Source: Nitrospirota bacterium
Lineage (GTDB): Bacteria > Nitrospirota > Thermodesulfovibrionia > Thermodesulfovibrionales > SM23-35
NCBI GenBank assembly: GCA_013388435.1
Contig: JACAFE010000048.1
Location: 1-45,102 of the forward strand
Direction: 5' to 3'
DNA length: 45,102 nucleotides
Both the position numbers and the translations under genes were made by a program. Each line of letters starts with the position of its first letter. The stretch's first letter is position 1. The notes under the pieces were generated by a model. That model was given only the letters and a program-made list of their open reading frames with translations, was not told where the DNA came from and searched no databases. Of the stretch, positions 24,444-30,075 are shown piece after piece.

Positions 24444-25163
24444 ATGAAAGAACTTGCTGACATAAAAGATGTGCTGGAATTCTACCAAATGCTCGGATTT
24501 GAAAAGCTACCTATTGAGCTAAAGGATTTTAGAAAAACAGACAAAATCAATATTAAGACAGTATTGACTTCAAATGAAAATACGCCCATTAAGAATTATC
24601 ATTTGAAAGAAGAAGCATTAATTGAACTTCGCAAAGAAATAGGCGATTGTAAAAGATGTAAGCTATCGAAAAAGAGACTGAATATTGTTTTTGGCGAAGG
24701 CAATCCTGAAGCAAAACTTATGTTTATTGGCGAAGCTCCGGGAAGAGAAGAGGACGAACAGGGAAGACCTTTTGTTGGCGAAGCAGGAATGGTTCTGACA
24801 AGATTAATTGAAAAAATGGGCTTTAAACGAACCGATGTATATATAGCAAACATCGTAAAATGCAGACCTCCTATGAACAGAGATCCCGAACCTGATGAAA
24901 TTGAAGCATGCAAAGTTTTTGTCGAAAAGCAGATTGAAATAATAAATCCAAGGGTAATAATGTCGCTTGGCAGAATATCTACGATGACACTTTCAGGCAT
25001 TAATAAGTTAAAAATAACAGCGATCAGGGGTAAATTTTTTTACTTTAAAGATATACCTGTGATGCCAACATTTCATCCCGCATATCTTATGAGAAATCCA
25101 AAAGATAAATGGCTGACATGGAATGACGCGCAGAAGGTTCTTAATAAACTGGCTGAGAAATGA
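24444..25163 (+). CDS. udg: Family-4-type uracil-DNA glycosylase
   Basis: This 239-residue enzyme removes uracil from DNA. It carries the four-cysteine pattern of family 4, the [4Fe-4S] type: CKRCKL near residue 70, a cysteine after NIVK, and one in EIEACKVF. Motif A is FIGEAPGREEDEQGRPFVG and motif B is TFHPAYLMRNP. The N-terminal 60 residues form a variable extension. It follows nadK by 9 bp and overlaps the next gene by 4 bp. Confidence 0.93.
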   Translation: MKELADIKDVLEFYQMLGFEKLPIELKDFRKTDKINIKTVLTSNENTPIKNYHLKEEALIELRKEIGDCKRCKLSKKRLNIVFGEGNPEAKLMFIGEAPGREEDEQGRPFVGEAGMVLTRLIEKMGFKRTDVYIANIVKCRPPMNRDPEPDEIEACKVFVEKQIEIINPRVIMSLGRISTMTLSGINKLKITAIRGKFFYFKDIPVMPTFHPAYLMRNPKDKWLTWNDAQKVLNKLAEK

Positions 25164-26110
25164 TCAGGTTTTTTTTGCTTTCTTTATCCATTTTTTTCTT
25201 AATTGACTGTACTTCTTCTGTCAGTCAATCTTTTGCCGATACAATTAATAGAGTGCTTGCAAGTATTGACAATAATCTGATTACATATTCAGATTACCTC
25301 AAATTTACTGGAGAAACTCAGGATAAAAATTCAGAGATGAAAATAGATGAAAAAATATTGAAAAACCTTATTGAAGAAAAGATAATGCTCGAAGAAGCCG
25401 AAAAATCTATGATAGAAGTTAATGAAAAAGAAATAGAAGAAGCTGTTCAGGACTTTATGATTCAGCATAAACTCTCACCTGATACTTTAAAGCTGCAAAT
25501 AAAACAGGAAGGACTCGATAACATAGGTTTTTTGAAAATAATGAAAGAAAAGATAATGGTGTCGAAATTAATTAATATGCAGATTGATTCAAAAATATTT
25601 ATTACCGAAGATGAAAAAATCAGCTATTATAATAAAAACAGAAACAATTATATTTATATTCCTGAAAAGGTTGAAGCAAAAGCAGTTTTTCTTAAACTTA
25701 AAGAAAGCTCTACCCTTACCGAATTAACTGATTTAAAAAGAAAAGCTCTTAAAGTAACGAAACTTCTGAGAGACGGAGAGCCATTTGAAGTAGTTCTCGA
25801 AAAATATTCTGATGAACCTCTAAAAAGTCAGAATGGTTTTCTTGGCGTTTTTGAAAAAGGTAAAATGATTCCACAACTTGATGCTGTAGCTTTTTCTATG
25901 AAAAAAGGAGAGGTAAGCGATCCGATATGGGTACAGGATGGTGCATATATATTGTATATAGTCTCAAAATCAAGGGAAGTTTATAAACCATATGAATGGG
26001 TAAAGGACGATATCAATAATCTAATTTATGCCGAAAAGAAAGATAAATTATATAATGAATGGATAAAGAAATTATGGGAAAAACACGCTGTGAAAATAAA
26101 CTTAAACTGA
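25160..26110 (+). CDS. SurA/PpiC-like periplasmic peptidyl-prolyl isomerase
   Basis: A hydrophobic signal sequence (residues 1-26, ending near SFADTINR) leads to a SurA N-terminal-type helical domain (ASIDNNLITYSDYLKF, KNLIEEKIMLEEAEKS). A parvulin domain follows (about 165-275: EKVEAKAVFLKL, EPFEVVLEKYSDEP, GFLGVFEKGKMIPQLDAVAF, PIWVQDGAYILYIVSK). Such proteins chaperone outer-membrane proteins in the periplasm. The VFLIDCTSS region contains a cysteine, but its aspartate at -1 makes a lipoprotein signal unlikely. The gene is embedded in the pgeF run and overlaps the next gene by 52 bp. Confidence 0.88.
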   Translation: MIRFFLLSLSIFFLIDCTSSVSQSFADTINRVLASIDNNLITYSDYLKFTGETQDKNSEMKIDEKILKNLIEEKIMLEEAEKSMIEVNEKEIEEAVQDFMIQHKLSPDTLKLQIKQEGLDNIGFLKIMKEKIMVSKLINMQIDSKIFITEDEKISYYNKNRNNYIYIPEKVEAKAVFLKLKESSTLTELTDLKRKALKVTKLLRDGEPFEVVLEKYSDEPLKSQNGFLGVFEKGKMIPQLDAVAFSMKKGEVSDPIWVQDGAYILYIVSKSREVYKPYEWVKDDINNLIYAEKKDKLYNEWIKKLWEKHAVKINLN

Positions 26111-28491
26111 TTCTGTTTGTTTTACTAATTCTTTGCTTTTCAACTCCTATAAAAATACTATCAGAAACAAAGGATCTCGAACTTTTCGACAGAGGCTACA
26201 ATTATTATCTTTCTTATCAGCCTGAAAAAGCCGCAGAAGACTTTAAAACATTTCTTAATAAATTTCCGGAGAATTCAACAAATGATGCTGTCATGTTCTG
26301 GCTCGGGAAATCTTTAATTCAGTTAAAACAATATAAGGAAGCTGAAAATGTTTTTAATGATATTATTAAAAAATATCCTCATAGCCCGTTTACTTATTAT
26401 GCAAAGCAGGAAATAAAAGAAATTGCCGGAATAAAAAAACAAATCCCTATACAGTTAGAAAAAAACCAGCAGGATTCTATTCAGGTTAAAGTTTTAGAAG
26501 ACAAAAAAACAGAAATTCTGGAGAAGGAAAAGAAAAAGTTATCCGATTTAAAGGAAAAATTAAGTCAACTTGAAGCAGAAAGAAATATTTATAAAAATCT
26601 GCCTGATAAACAAAAAGAGCTTGAGCAGACAGTAAAACTATCTAATGAACTCCAGGAAAAAATCAGGAAACTTGAGGAAGAAAAAAGGCTTTATTCTGAA
26701 ACCCAGAAGAAATTAAATGAATTAGAACTTGAGAAGAAAAAAGCAGAAGAAATGAAGGAAAAAGCAAAAATTCTTGAGGATGAAATAAAGAATGCGGAGA
26801 AACTAAAAGAGAAAATAAAGGAATTAGAAAAATACAAAGCACAGTCCGAAGAATTGCAAATTAGGGTAAAAATTCTTCAGGAGGAAAAAAAGAAAGCTGA
26901 TGAACTTCAATTAAAATTGAAGGAAATGGAATATTTAAAAGATAAAATTGAGAAACTCCGCGAGAAAATTAAGAATCTTGATGCAGAAAAGAAAAATGCT
27001 GAAAAACTTAATTCAAAAATAAAAGAGATGGAGGATCTAAAAATACAGGCCGAAGAATTGCAGAAAAAATCCGCTGAACTTGAGAATGAAAGGAAAAAGG
27101 CCGAAGAACTTCAATCTAAGATAAAAGAAATGGAGAAAATCAAAGAAAAAACAAAAGATTTAAAATCTTATATAAAAGAACTCGAAGCTGAAAAAGAAAA
27201 AGCCGAAAAATTACAGAAAAAAGTAAATGAACTTGAAGAATTAAGAAAAAAAGCTGCTGAGCTTCAGGAGAAAATCAAGAATCTCGAAGAAGAAAAAAAG
27301 AAATCCGTTGATTTAAATAAACGTTTAAAAGAGCTTGAGGCTGATAAAGAAAAAATTGAAGAACTACAGGAAAAAATTCGGGAACTCGAATCCGAGAAGA
27401 AAAAAGCCGATAAACTTATGGAAAAAATAAAAGAACTCGAAGACATAAAAAAGAAATCAGAAGAGATAAATTTAAAACTTAAAGAACTTGAAGAAACAAA
27501 GAAAAAGTCTATGCTGCTTCAGGCTAAAATAGAAGAACTCGAAAAAGCAAGAGTAAAAACAGAAGAATTGCAAAAAAGAATCGCGCATCTTGAAGAAGAA
27601 AAAAAGAAAGCTGATGAACTTGAAATCAAATTAAAGAAACTACAACAAGAGGAACAAAAATTAAAAGAACTTGAAGCAAAGGCAAAAGAACTCGAAAATG
27701 AAAAAAACAGGGTTGCCGAACTTTCCACGAATATAAAAAAACTTGAAGATGAAAAGAAAAAATCAGAGGAATATTATCTTAAACTCAAGGAACTTGAGGA
27801 TGAAAGAAAAAAATCTCAAATTCTATCCGAAAAATTAAAGGAAATACAGGAAAGAGAAAATTATGTAACCGATTCTTTACATGTATTGAATAAAATCGGT
27901 ATAAAAAATGTTCCATGGAGAAGCGGCAATATAAAACAAGATATATATGTAGAAAAGGTCTTATTTAACGAAGCCGAAAAACAAAAATTAAAACCCGATA
28001 TGAATGAATACACAAAGTCAATAGAAAAATATAAATTCAATAAACAACAGGCGGATTACCTTTATAAATATATGACTATTTTTGAGTTATTTAAATCGAA
28101 AATTACTGATACACCTTACGAAAACATTATCGAACAGCTTATTGTCAGATATGATGAAGAAAATAAATATACAAAAATAGTGCTTGCTTCAGAATTGCAA
28201 ACGCTGGCAAAAGGCAATATGTTATTCGAAGAGATAAGGAATCTTTATCCCGATATGATTGAATATGAAACAACAAATTATGATACGCTTCCAGAAAATA
28301 TCAGAGAAAAAGTCAGTCTTGTACCTGTGGGTGGAATAGGTGTAATCTGGCTTAATGATGGGTACAGGATCATAAAACATTCCAGGAAAAAAATAGACAT
28401 AACACCTTTTCAGGAACTCCCATATGATGCAAAAGAAAAGATAAAGGAATATGTATTACAAATTATTAAGGATACAAAGAATGAACAATAA
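26059..28491 (+). CDS. Envelope protein: TPR, 17-residue coiled-coil repeats, parvulin-like end
   Basis: This 810-residue protein has four parts. A signal or anchor segment lies at residues 15-35. A TPR/YbgF-like region (40-120) includes LFDRGYNYYLSYQPEKAAED and YKEAENVFNDIIKKYPHSPF. A charged coiled coil (166-590) consists of 25 consecutive 17-residue units with consensus xKIKELEEEKKKAEELQ. The C-terminal part (600-810) looks like a divergent SurA/parvulin module: KYTKIVLASELQTLAKGNML then VGGIGVIWLNDGYRIIKHSR, without the usual catalytic histidines. I know no named family. It overlaps the SurA-like gene by 52 bp, so the two are probably made together. ATG 26074 is an alternative start. It converges on purN with 5 bp between stops. 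Confidence 0.75.
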   Translation: MDKEIMGKTRCENKLKLILFVLLILCFSTPIKILSETKDLELFDRGYNYYLSYQPEKAAEDFKTFLNKFPENSTNDAVMFWLGKSLIQLKQYKEAENVFNDIIKKYPHSPFTYYAKQEIKEIAGIKKQIPIQLEKNQQDSIQVKVLEDKKTEILEKEKKKLSDLKEKLSQLEAERNIYKNLPDKQKELEQTVKLSNELQEKIRKLEEEKRLYSETQKKLNELELEKKKAEEMKEKAKILEDEIKNAEKLKEKIKELEKYKAQSEELQIRVKILQEEKKKADELQLKLKEMEYLKDKIEKLREKIKNLDAEKKNAEKLNSKIKEMEDLKIQAEELQKKSAELENERKKAEELQSKIKEMEKIKEKTKDLKSYIKELEAEKEKAEKLQKKVNELEELRKKAAELQEKIKNLEEEKKKSVDLNKRLKELEADKEKIEELQEKIRELESEKKKADKLMEKIKELEDIKKKSEEINLKLKELEETKKKSMLLQAKIEELEKARVKTEELQKRIAHLEEEKKKADELEIKLKKLQQEEQKLKELEAKAKELENEKNRVAELSTNIKKLEDEKKKSEEYYLKLKELEDERKKSQILSEKLKEIQERENYVTDSLHVLNKIGIKNVPWRSGNIKQDIYVEKVLFNEAEKQKLKPDMNEYTKSIEKYKFNKQQADYLYKYMTIFELFKSKITDTPYENIIEQLIVRYDEENKYTKIVLASELQTLAKGNMLFEEIRNLYPDMIEYETTNYDTLPENIREKVSLVPVGGIGVIWLNDGYRIIKHSRKKIDITPFQELPYDAKEKIKEYVLQIIKDTKNEQ
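26554..27828 (+). repeat. 25 units of a 51-bp coding repeat
   Basis: The DNA encodes twenty-five successive 17-residue units with no insertion or deletion between them (protein residues 166-590). Codons vary from unit to unit, so the repeat is visible mainly at protein level. It seems maintained by selection rather than by recent duplication. Confidence 0.85.
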
Positions 28492-29115: not shown

Positions 29116-30075
29116 TTACAATCTTACTTCTATGCGGGCTTTTTCTCGCAAATCTTTGATAAGACTTCTGTATTTTTCAAGAAATTTCTGTTCATTAAGT
29201 TGTTTGCTTACGAGTTCTTTCATTTCATCGGGATTAGCTGGCGATAATTTGGCATCAAGTTTTATAATATGGAGTCCTTTTTCTGTCCAGAAAGGCTTGG
29301 TTATTTCACCTATTTTTATTTTTGAAATTGCATCAATAAATTCTTTTGCAAGAATATCTTTATTTACTACACCAAGCTCACCGCCCTGTTGACCTGAAGC
29401 ATCTTCTGAATATTCTTTTGCAAGCTTACTAAAATCCTCACCATTCTTGATGCGTTCTATAATTTGCATAGCTTTCTCTTCAATAGTTTTACGTTCAGAA
29501 TCATCGGCAGGTTTTTTAAAAAATATTTGTTTTATTTTGTAAGTTTCGTTTTGGGTTAATGTTTCTTTGTTTTCATCAATATATTTTTTAATCTCTTCAT
29601 CCGTCACAACTATTTTACTCCTTATTTTTCTGTTTAAAAACTGATTTACGAGTATTTGTTCGGAAAGAATTTTTTTATACTCATCCATCGAAATTCCCTC
29701 TTTTTTAAGATTTTCCTCGAGCATCTTATCTGTCATAGAATATTTTGATTTTATATTTTCAATAGCTTCCTTTAATTCTTCCCGAGAAACACTCATGCCG
29801 ATTCTTTTGGCTTCCTGTAATTGTAATCTGAAATCAATGAGTTTTTCGAGAAAAACAGGTTCATTTGACCTGAATATTTTCAAACGATCTTCTTCAGACA
29901 TTGACTTAAGTTGCTCTGAAGCTTCATTTTCCATCATTTTATATAATTCACTCCATGTTATAACATCATCGTTAACCACTGCAATTACTCTATCAAGCAT
30001 CACCGCCGGGCAAGCATAAAATGGATAAGTCAAAATCAAGAAAAAAAATATTAAACAGATCATGTATCTCTTCAT
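29116..30075 (-). CDS. SurA-like periplasmic chaperone/PPIase
   Basis: A signal peptide (residues 1-24, MKRYMICLIFFFLILTYPFY then ACPA) precedes VMLDRVIAVVNDDVITWSEL, the classic SurA N-terminal strand-helix. A helical chaperone domain runs to about 170. One parvulin domain (about 175-285) has YKIKQIFFKK, GEDFSKLAKEYSEDASGQQG, GELGVVNKDILAKEFIDAI and PFWTEKGLHIIKLD. Length 319 residues, so one parvulin domain rather than SurA's two. It is divergent from the formate operon and next to purN. It is a paralogue of the gene at 25160-26110. Confidence 0.9.
   Translation of the reverse strand: MKRYMICLIFFFLILTYPFYACPAVMLDRVIAVVNDDVITWSELYKMMENEASEQLKSMSEEDRLKIFRSNEPVFLEKLIDFRLQLQEAKRIGMSVSREELKEAIENIKSKYSMTDKMLEENLKKEGISMDEYKKILSEQILVNQFLNRKIRSKIVVTDEEIKKYIDENKETLTQNETYKIKQIFFKKPADDSERKTIEEKAMQIIERIKNGEDFSKLAKEYSEDASGQQGGELGVVNKDILAKEFIDAISKIKIGEITKPFWTEKGLHIIKLDAKLSPANPDEMKELVSKQLNEQKFLEKYRSLIKDLREKARIEVRL

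Follow-up and report, generated by a model that had tools for sequence, protein, structure and literature searches.

A protein with an unusually regular coiled coil is encoded on contig JACAFE010000048.1 of a Nitrospirota bacterium from the order Thermodesulfovibrionales (assembly GCA_013388435.1); the 45,102 nucleotides of this contig are the window analysed here. An open reading frame (ORF) on the forward strand, positions 26059-28491, has its first ATG at 26059 and encodes 810 amino acids. To judge from related sequences the true start is probably residue 6, with its ATG at 26074, because 16 of 29 family proteins have a Met-Gly-Lys/Glu/Gln/Arg motif close to their N-terminus. A likely signal peptide is followed by tetratricopeptide repeats (TPRs), a long coil built of 17-residue units and a C-terminal module resembling SurA, PpiD and PrsA. 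These features are listed in Table 1, along with two nearby genes for SurA-like isomerases.

Residues 166-590 divide into 25 consecutive units of 17 residues with no gaps, as an initial annotation of the sequence had proposed and as splitting the translation confirms. Counts at each position also bear out its description of hydrophobic residues at unit positions 3, 6, 13 and 16 and a basic residue at position 10. Position 6 is Leu or Met in all 25 units, position 16 is Leu, Ile, Met or Tyr in 24, position 3 carries a large hydrophobic residue in 21 and position 10 is Lys or Arg in 22. Position 13 is mostly small, being Ala or Ser in 17 units and a large hydrophobic residue in six. The weakest units are the first, which ends in a proline, and the second.

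Fourier analysis of the residues L, I, V, M, F, Y and W across the array places the hydrophobic period at 3.40, with a power of 50.5 compared with 1.3 at 3.5. This is the 17/5 periodicity that had been suggested. A chance origin of the period was ruled out with 2000 shuffles, in which the maximum power at any period from 3.2 to 3.9 was 13.5. When residues are read on a 17/5 clock, the phase of the hydrophobic seam holds between 148 and 187 degrees over twelve 34-residue blocks, whereas on a 7/2 clock it drifts steadily. On the 17/5 wheel the seam runs in the order L16, L6, A/S13 and I/L3, flanked by E9 and K10. Counting the basic position 10 as a layer gives core steps of 3-4-3-3-4, that is, a heptad and a decad, or one stammer per unit. 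When the core is fitted as a path of three- and four-residue steps, 494 residues of this coil contain 27 stammers and 2 stutters. The seam stays at 3.40 residues per turn, below the 3.5 that bounds an overwound coil, for 425 residues. At the DNA level Tandem Repeats Finder detects nothing of the array apart from one 2-copy stretch at 27429-27470.

Table 1. The coiled-coil gene, the parts of its product and the neighbouring isomerase genes, in window coordinates
Feature	Position	Strand	Basis or remark
TPR / 17-residue coil / SurA-like protein gene	26074..28491	+	ORF and start motif; overlaps 3' end of upstream isomerase gene
Signal peptide, residues ~6-36	26074..26166	+	Judged by eye from translation
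TPR region, residues 44-116	26188..26406	+	Pfam TPR_6 and TPR_2; YbgF profile
25 gapless 17-residue units, residues 166-590, with 17/5 hydrophobic seam	26554..27828	+	Translation, Fourier analysis, congener comparison
C-terminal SurA/PpiD/PrsA-like module, residues 600-810; parvulin fold without motif histidine	27856..28488	+	
SurA/PrsA-like isomerase gene, conserved neighbour	25160..26110	+	Rotamase E 1.1e-14, SurA_N E 2.4e-8; overlaps start of coil gene
Second SurA-like isomerase gene, adjoins purN	29116..30075	-	Rotamase_3 E 1.8e-25

The array is found entire in a congener. The 813-residue protein of this genome (G001) has all 25 units, with no gap across the 425 residues and 83% identity; the linker just ahead of the array is 38% identical. 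Non-synonymous and synonymous divergence across the array are 0.104 and 1.05 (dN and dS), and 24 of the 25 congener units match the window unit of the same number best, unit 2 being the exception. Because all 25 units are present, dN is so far below dS and units match by number, we conclude that the array is older than the split between the two species and has been held by selection. Recent tandem duplication was considered as the cause of the perfect spacing and rejected. Units within the window protein are on average only 41% identical in protein and 56% in DNA, compared with 83% for same-numbered units in the two species.

Could a period of 3.40 be an ordinary property of any coil? This was rejected using two sets of controls. 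In 20 SMC proteins from related genomes, the median period of 200-residue windows with power above 8 is 3.505 (5-95% range 3.485-3.54, 667 windows), and in 18 RmuC proteins it is 3.51 over 92 windows. The core-path fit counts 97 stammers and 103 stutters in 10,848 coil residues of the SMC proteins. The contrast with RmuC is weakened by some short coils whose fitted mean step drops to 3.444 (L100 and L112), and a coil segment was found in 13 of the 18 RmuC proteins.

A run of 17-residue units had been called unusual, and the sequences and literature searched are in keeping with this. A profile of the unit, built from 16 of 22 four-unit windows, matched 10 of 177,635 PDB sequences at an E-value of 0.1 or better, and the five alignments inspected contained no natural 17/5 coil. 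The best of these matches is the GCN4 construct 5apw (E 3.9e-4), apparently one of the insert constructs made by Hartmann et al. At an E-value of 0.5 the profile has weak matches in 108 of 295 genomes, including the window's own and that of the congener. Such a profile reaches similar sequences only, and could miss a 17/5 coil of different composition. In the open-licence literature we found no report of a coiled coil that sustains a 17/5 period, and the sole 17-residue helical tandem repeat to emerge was that of the malarial protein LSA-1, discussed below.

The protein family is wider than the array. With the C-terminal part as query, matches occur in 27 of the 176 genomes of the order; a profile finds 23 among 395 genomes drawn from the phylum, all of them within the order. 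With the profile of the 17-residue unit, only the window's genome and its congener match, both among the 176 genomes (E 1e-8) and among the 395 (E 1e-6). From 39 match rows we counted 28 homologue loci, after setting aside the window itself and three fragmentary rows and joining pieces in the same frame. Their reading frames range from 272 amino acids, a piece of a split gene, to 1301. Three homologues are split (L021, L042 and L051): an overlapping ORF in another frame holds the TPR side, which may reflect an assembly error or a real frameshift.

Comparison of homologues had been proposed as the test of whether the unit is conserved in number and register. Both are kept in the sole congener found and neither is kept outside the genus. 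A 17-residue unit common to the whole family was accordingly rejected, as coil length and period vary. A strict 17/5 period over the entire coil is observed in one genus only. Elsewhere, a coil segment is present in 24 of 27 proteins, with 145 stammers and 88 stutters in 6,936 residues (by subtraction), and the median of 327 200-residue windows is 3.47. Windows at about 3.40-3.42 occur in G009, G018, G031, G162, G163, G164, G165 and G170, and the medians of L019, L048, L049 and L052 (3.485-3.505) are near the heptad value. For 100-residue windows the medians are 3.475 in the family and 3.50 in SMC. Values below 3.45 make up 0.153 of the 255 windows from the remaining 27 members and 0.110 of the 670 SMC windows; below 3.42 the order is reversed, with 0.047 for the family against 0.099 for SMC. 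Either these shorter windows are too noisy or the trend towards overwinding is weak, and they do not separate the family from SMC. Part of the family probably leans towards overwinding, although the evidence for this is not firm.

Other periodic repeats were noted as well. Six genomes, all of one further Nitrospirota family, encode proteins (L128, L132, L137, L138, L139 and L149) that share like beginnings followed by a long coil; for one of the six, L132, an N-terminal receiver domain was shown (Pfam PF00072). These coils have a 31-residue repeat, which is the top lag in five and the second in L138, with a seam at 3.445-3.46, close to 31/9. On this pattern they would be another overwound coil with a unit of 7n+10 residues. 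A 394-residue ORF, L136, has a 30-residue repeat containing proline, with seam power at 3.345, and perhaps forms helical hairpins rather than a coil.

Gene order around the homologues is conserved. Directly upstream of the homologue stands an isomerase gene in 19 of the 28 loci, 17 of which also carry a uracil-DNA glycosylase gene, ordered as in the window. The nine loci that lack the upstream isomerase comprise two at a contig end and seven in one genus. In one genus the homologue stands apart from the isomerase gene (L017 and L043-L047). Two genomes of that genus, G031 and G170, have a second, longer copy beside the isomerase gene (L019 and L052), which points to a duplication.

The ends of the protein carry recognizable domains. 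The TPR-like N-terminus of the initial annotation is borne out by a Pfam TPR_6 match at residues 78-109 (E 2.5e-10, 40.8 bits against a cut-off of 26.3) and a TPR_2 match (E 2.6e-7, 30.7 bits against 27). Membership of the CpoB/YbgF family is not indicated, as the NCBIfam model TIGR02795 scores 38.5 bits at residues 44-110, below its cut-off of 90.1.

A parvulin-like C-terminus had been suggested too. Structural comparison matches it to SurA, PpiD and PrsA, and the support from sequence is weaker. An AlphaFold2 (AF2) model of the C-terminal module, computed from 10 aligned C-termini out of 29, has a predicted local distance difference test score (pLDDT) of 88.5 and a predicted TM-score of 0.61. 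The top Foldseek match of this model is SurA in the BAM complex (E 1.7e-5, probability 1.00, TM-score 0.32), with a root-mean-square deviation (rmsd) of 20 over 258 columns that may reflect domain movement. In VIA-align the top place is shared by chain A of a PpiD-YfgM entry (Z 10.4 over 179 aligned residues, rmsd 14.8), the parvulin domain 3gpk (Z 10.2 over 99, rmsd 4.1) and SurA (Z 9.8 over 180, rmsd 18.7); below them come Pin1 entries, with Z up to 8.8 (88 aligned, rmsd 2.9). The model thus appears to have the parts of a SurA/PrsA-type module, namely N-terminal helices, a parvulin domain and a C-terminal helix, with a whole-module match that rests on high-rmsd alignments. By sequence, PrsA in the PDB is matched at E 0.031, and hhalign pairs the module with the downstream SurA-like protein (29116-30075) at E 1.6e-5 and a probability of 79%.

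An active parvulin domain has the motif G-[YW]-H-I-I with its histidine. We examined 29 proteins of the family and found the motif in 24; in all 24 the histidine is replaced by R, M, V, L or I, and isomerase activity of the module is therefore unlikely. The folding domain proposed for the end of the protein accordingly keeps its parvulin-like fold and probably lacks that activity. By eye, the downstream SurA-like isomerase (29116-30075) retains the motif histidine and the upstream one (25160-26110) has a tyrosine in its place.

The coil would be a very long object. By Crick geometry the pitch of a 17/5 dimer is about 75-88 Å and its helices cross at 36-45 degrees; for a heptad coil the figures are 144-188 Å and 17-24 degrees. 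A continuous 17/5 coil of 425 residues would measure about 59-61 nm if dimeric, and 57-58 nm if it formed a wider bundle. The usual periplasm is 20-25 nm wide. At about 57-61 nm the rod would be more than twice as long, so it would have to lie along the envelope or fold back, and the earlier idea that the protein reaches across the periplasm does not hold.

The combination of TPRs, a rod of variable length and a catalytically dead SurA-like module next to an isomerase gene suggests a periplasmic chaperone scaffold. The reading we tentatively favour is that of a secreted, probably periplasmic, rod-shaped scaffold of the Thermodesulfovibrionales, standing beside a SurA-like isomerase and having a continuous, overwound coil. 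The middle of the protein would be an uninterrupted, left-handed coiled coil of alpha-helices that makes five turns per 17 residues, with one stammer in each 17. It would self-associate, probably as two strands, into a rod of about 60 nm lying along the envelope. The small Ala or Ser at position 13, at the 3-3 step, could let the helices approach closely where the twist is greatest. The N-terminal TPRs may dock an isomerase of the SurA/PpiD type, for which the protein encoded by the overlapping upstream gene is the likeliest candidate, much as the TPRs of YfgM dock PpiD, and the dead SurA-like end may hold segments of client proteins. The structural part of this reading is about as tentative: an evenly overwound, left-handed 17/5 coil over 425 residues, standing at the extreme of a set of rods in bacteria whose units measure 7n+10 residues (17, 24, 31, 38) and whose pitch is set by the spacing of their stammers. 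The 7n+10 lags in the family rest on modest autocorrelation peaks.

Several results weigh against this picture. Pfam Rotamase_3 is matched by 3 of 10 members of the module alignment, and the C-terminus of the window protein itself has no parvulin match. The alignment by hhalign of the module with the upstream isomerase is poor (probability 4.3%). The coil is optional, as no coil segment passes the filter used in 3 of the 27 proteins from outside the genus, and in L016 (415 amino acids, near a contig end) a coil and the C-terminal module were seen by eye and TPRs were not. The full-length AF2 monomer is poor as well (pLDDT 61.3, from three sequences), and its helix breaks at residues 178-181, 360-367, 413-419 and 547-548, as it would in a bundle folded back on itself. 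Finally, charges flanking the seam prefer parallel or antiparallel strands depending on the distance cut-off.

Three other structures deserve consideration, along with one other function; readings of the two kinds are compatible. The strain could be localized, with each unit a heptad and a decad whose stammer is absorbed by a short 3-10 turn near position 13, making the rod a chain of 25 local defects. Even overwinding and localized stammers leave the same sequence signature. Stammers are indeed taken up by 3-10 segments in the account excerpted from Hartmann et al. (2016, PMC4786415), and the small residue, present in 17 of 25 units, marks a single point in each. A regular spacing of 17 residues would however allow the strain to spread, unlike in isolated stammers, and we consider localization somewhat unlikely. 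A folded-back bundle, in which the long helix breaks into helices that pack together, would be shorter and thicker and would fit the periplasm. It draws on the breaks in the AF2 monomer and on the charges, since in the window protein the best antiparallel score exceeds the best parallel score at one of three cut-offs, being close or below at the others. Yet the three breaks from residue 360 onwards fall in units without Gly or Pro, in a low-confidence model, and the seam phase keeps its range through these three; the fourth (178-181) adjoins a proline. A bundle seems distinctly unlikely. As for a single alpha-helix, a charged monomeric spacer stabilized by salt bridges, it would suit a region where 235 of 425 residues are K, E, D or R and where opposite charges outnumber like charges by 123 to 22 at i+3. 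At i+4, the usual spacing of charge pairs in single helices, the lead is a modest 88 to 40. A hydrophobic seam under purifying selection, with Leu or Met at position 6 in every unit, is not expected of such a helix, which makes this the most improbable of the alternatives.

The function, too, may be another one: the protein could be a filament that determines cell shape or spaces the envelope, its SurA-like end serving merely as a binding domain. A length of about 60 nm, homologous frames of up to 1301 amino acids and the missing parvulin histidine would all suit a filament. The overlap and synteny with the isomerase gene would not, and homologues of 407 and 445 amino acids retain the TPRs and the C-terminal module with little or no coil, which suggests that the ends matter most. 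We regard a filament as unlikely, and a chaperone scaffold as the better account.

Coiled coils are among the best understood of protein folds. Yet of the non-heptad structures known, the great majority have more than 3.5 residues per turn, within limits assumed to run from about 3.33 (10/3) to about 3.9, as summarized in part of Hartmann et al. (2016, PMC4786415). If the coil is evenly overwound, it would imply that evolution can tune the pitch of a supercoil through the spacing between stammers. The selected array of 25 units at 3.40 offers a natural sample for distinguishing even, long-range overwinding from one local defect per unit. It also offers a clean repeat for the design of rods with a set pitch.

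How does this protein compare with known systems? Helical 17-residue arrays have a precedent in LSA-1 of Plasmodium falciparum, which has 86 repeats of 17 residues and for which cited circular dichroism data suggest an unbroken helix 220 nm long (PMC3037345, in the section drawn on here). Both are long tandem arrays of helical units rich in E, K and Q, and one printed form of the LSA-1 unit, turned cyclically, peaks at 3.40 (power 60.1), the other printed form being weak (9.4). LSA-1 belongs to another domain of life, however, and its copies are identical or minor variants. We know of no flanking domains that it has in common with the coil protein. The same section of its source describes a helix with cross-linking and not an overwound coiled coil (PMC3037345). 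Decads have been solved, e.g. in the prenyl synthase 3aqb (PMC9369452, as excerpted), and resemble the present units in that each of these combines a heptad with a decad and has one stammer. The solved cases are single insertions or short stretches, whereas here a stammer recurs every 17 residues for 425 residues.

For the ends of the protein, the closest parallel is YfgM and PpiD, in which the TPRs of YfgM contact the NC domain of PpiD (PMC9643414, from the portion consulted). Like that pair, the coil protein combines TPRs with a SurA-like module that contains a parvulin domain, and the PpiD-YfgM entry is among the tied structural matches. An isomerase gene is adjacent as well, and its product is a putative partner. 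The TPR and SurA-like parts are joined here in one chain, with a rod between them, and by eye the protein has no evident membrane anchor beyond its signal peptide. CpoB/YbgF also unites a coiled coil with TPRs of the same type, but scores short of the family cut-off go with a reversed order: in CpoB the coil precedes the TPRs, and in the coil protein it follows them. In SurA and PrsA, as in the modelled C-terminal module, helices are followed by a parvulin domain and then by a C-terminal helix; the present module differs in lacking the motif histidine and in its place at the end of a long coil.

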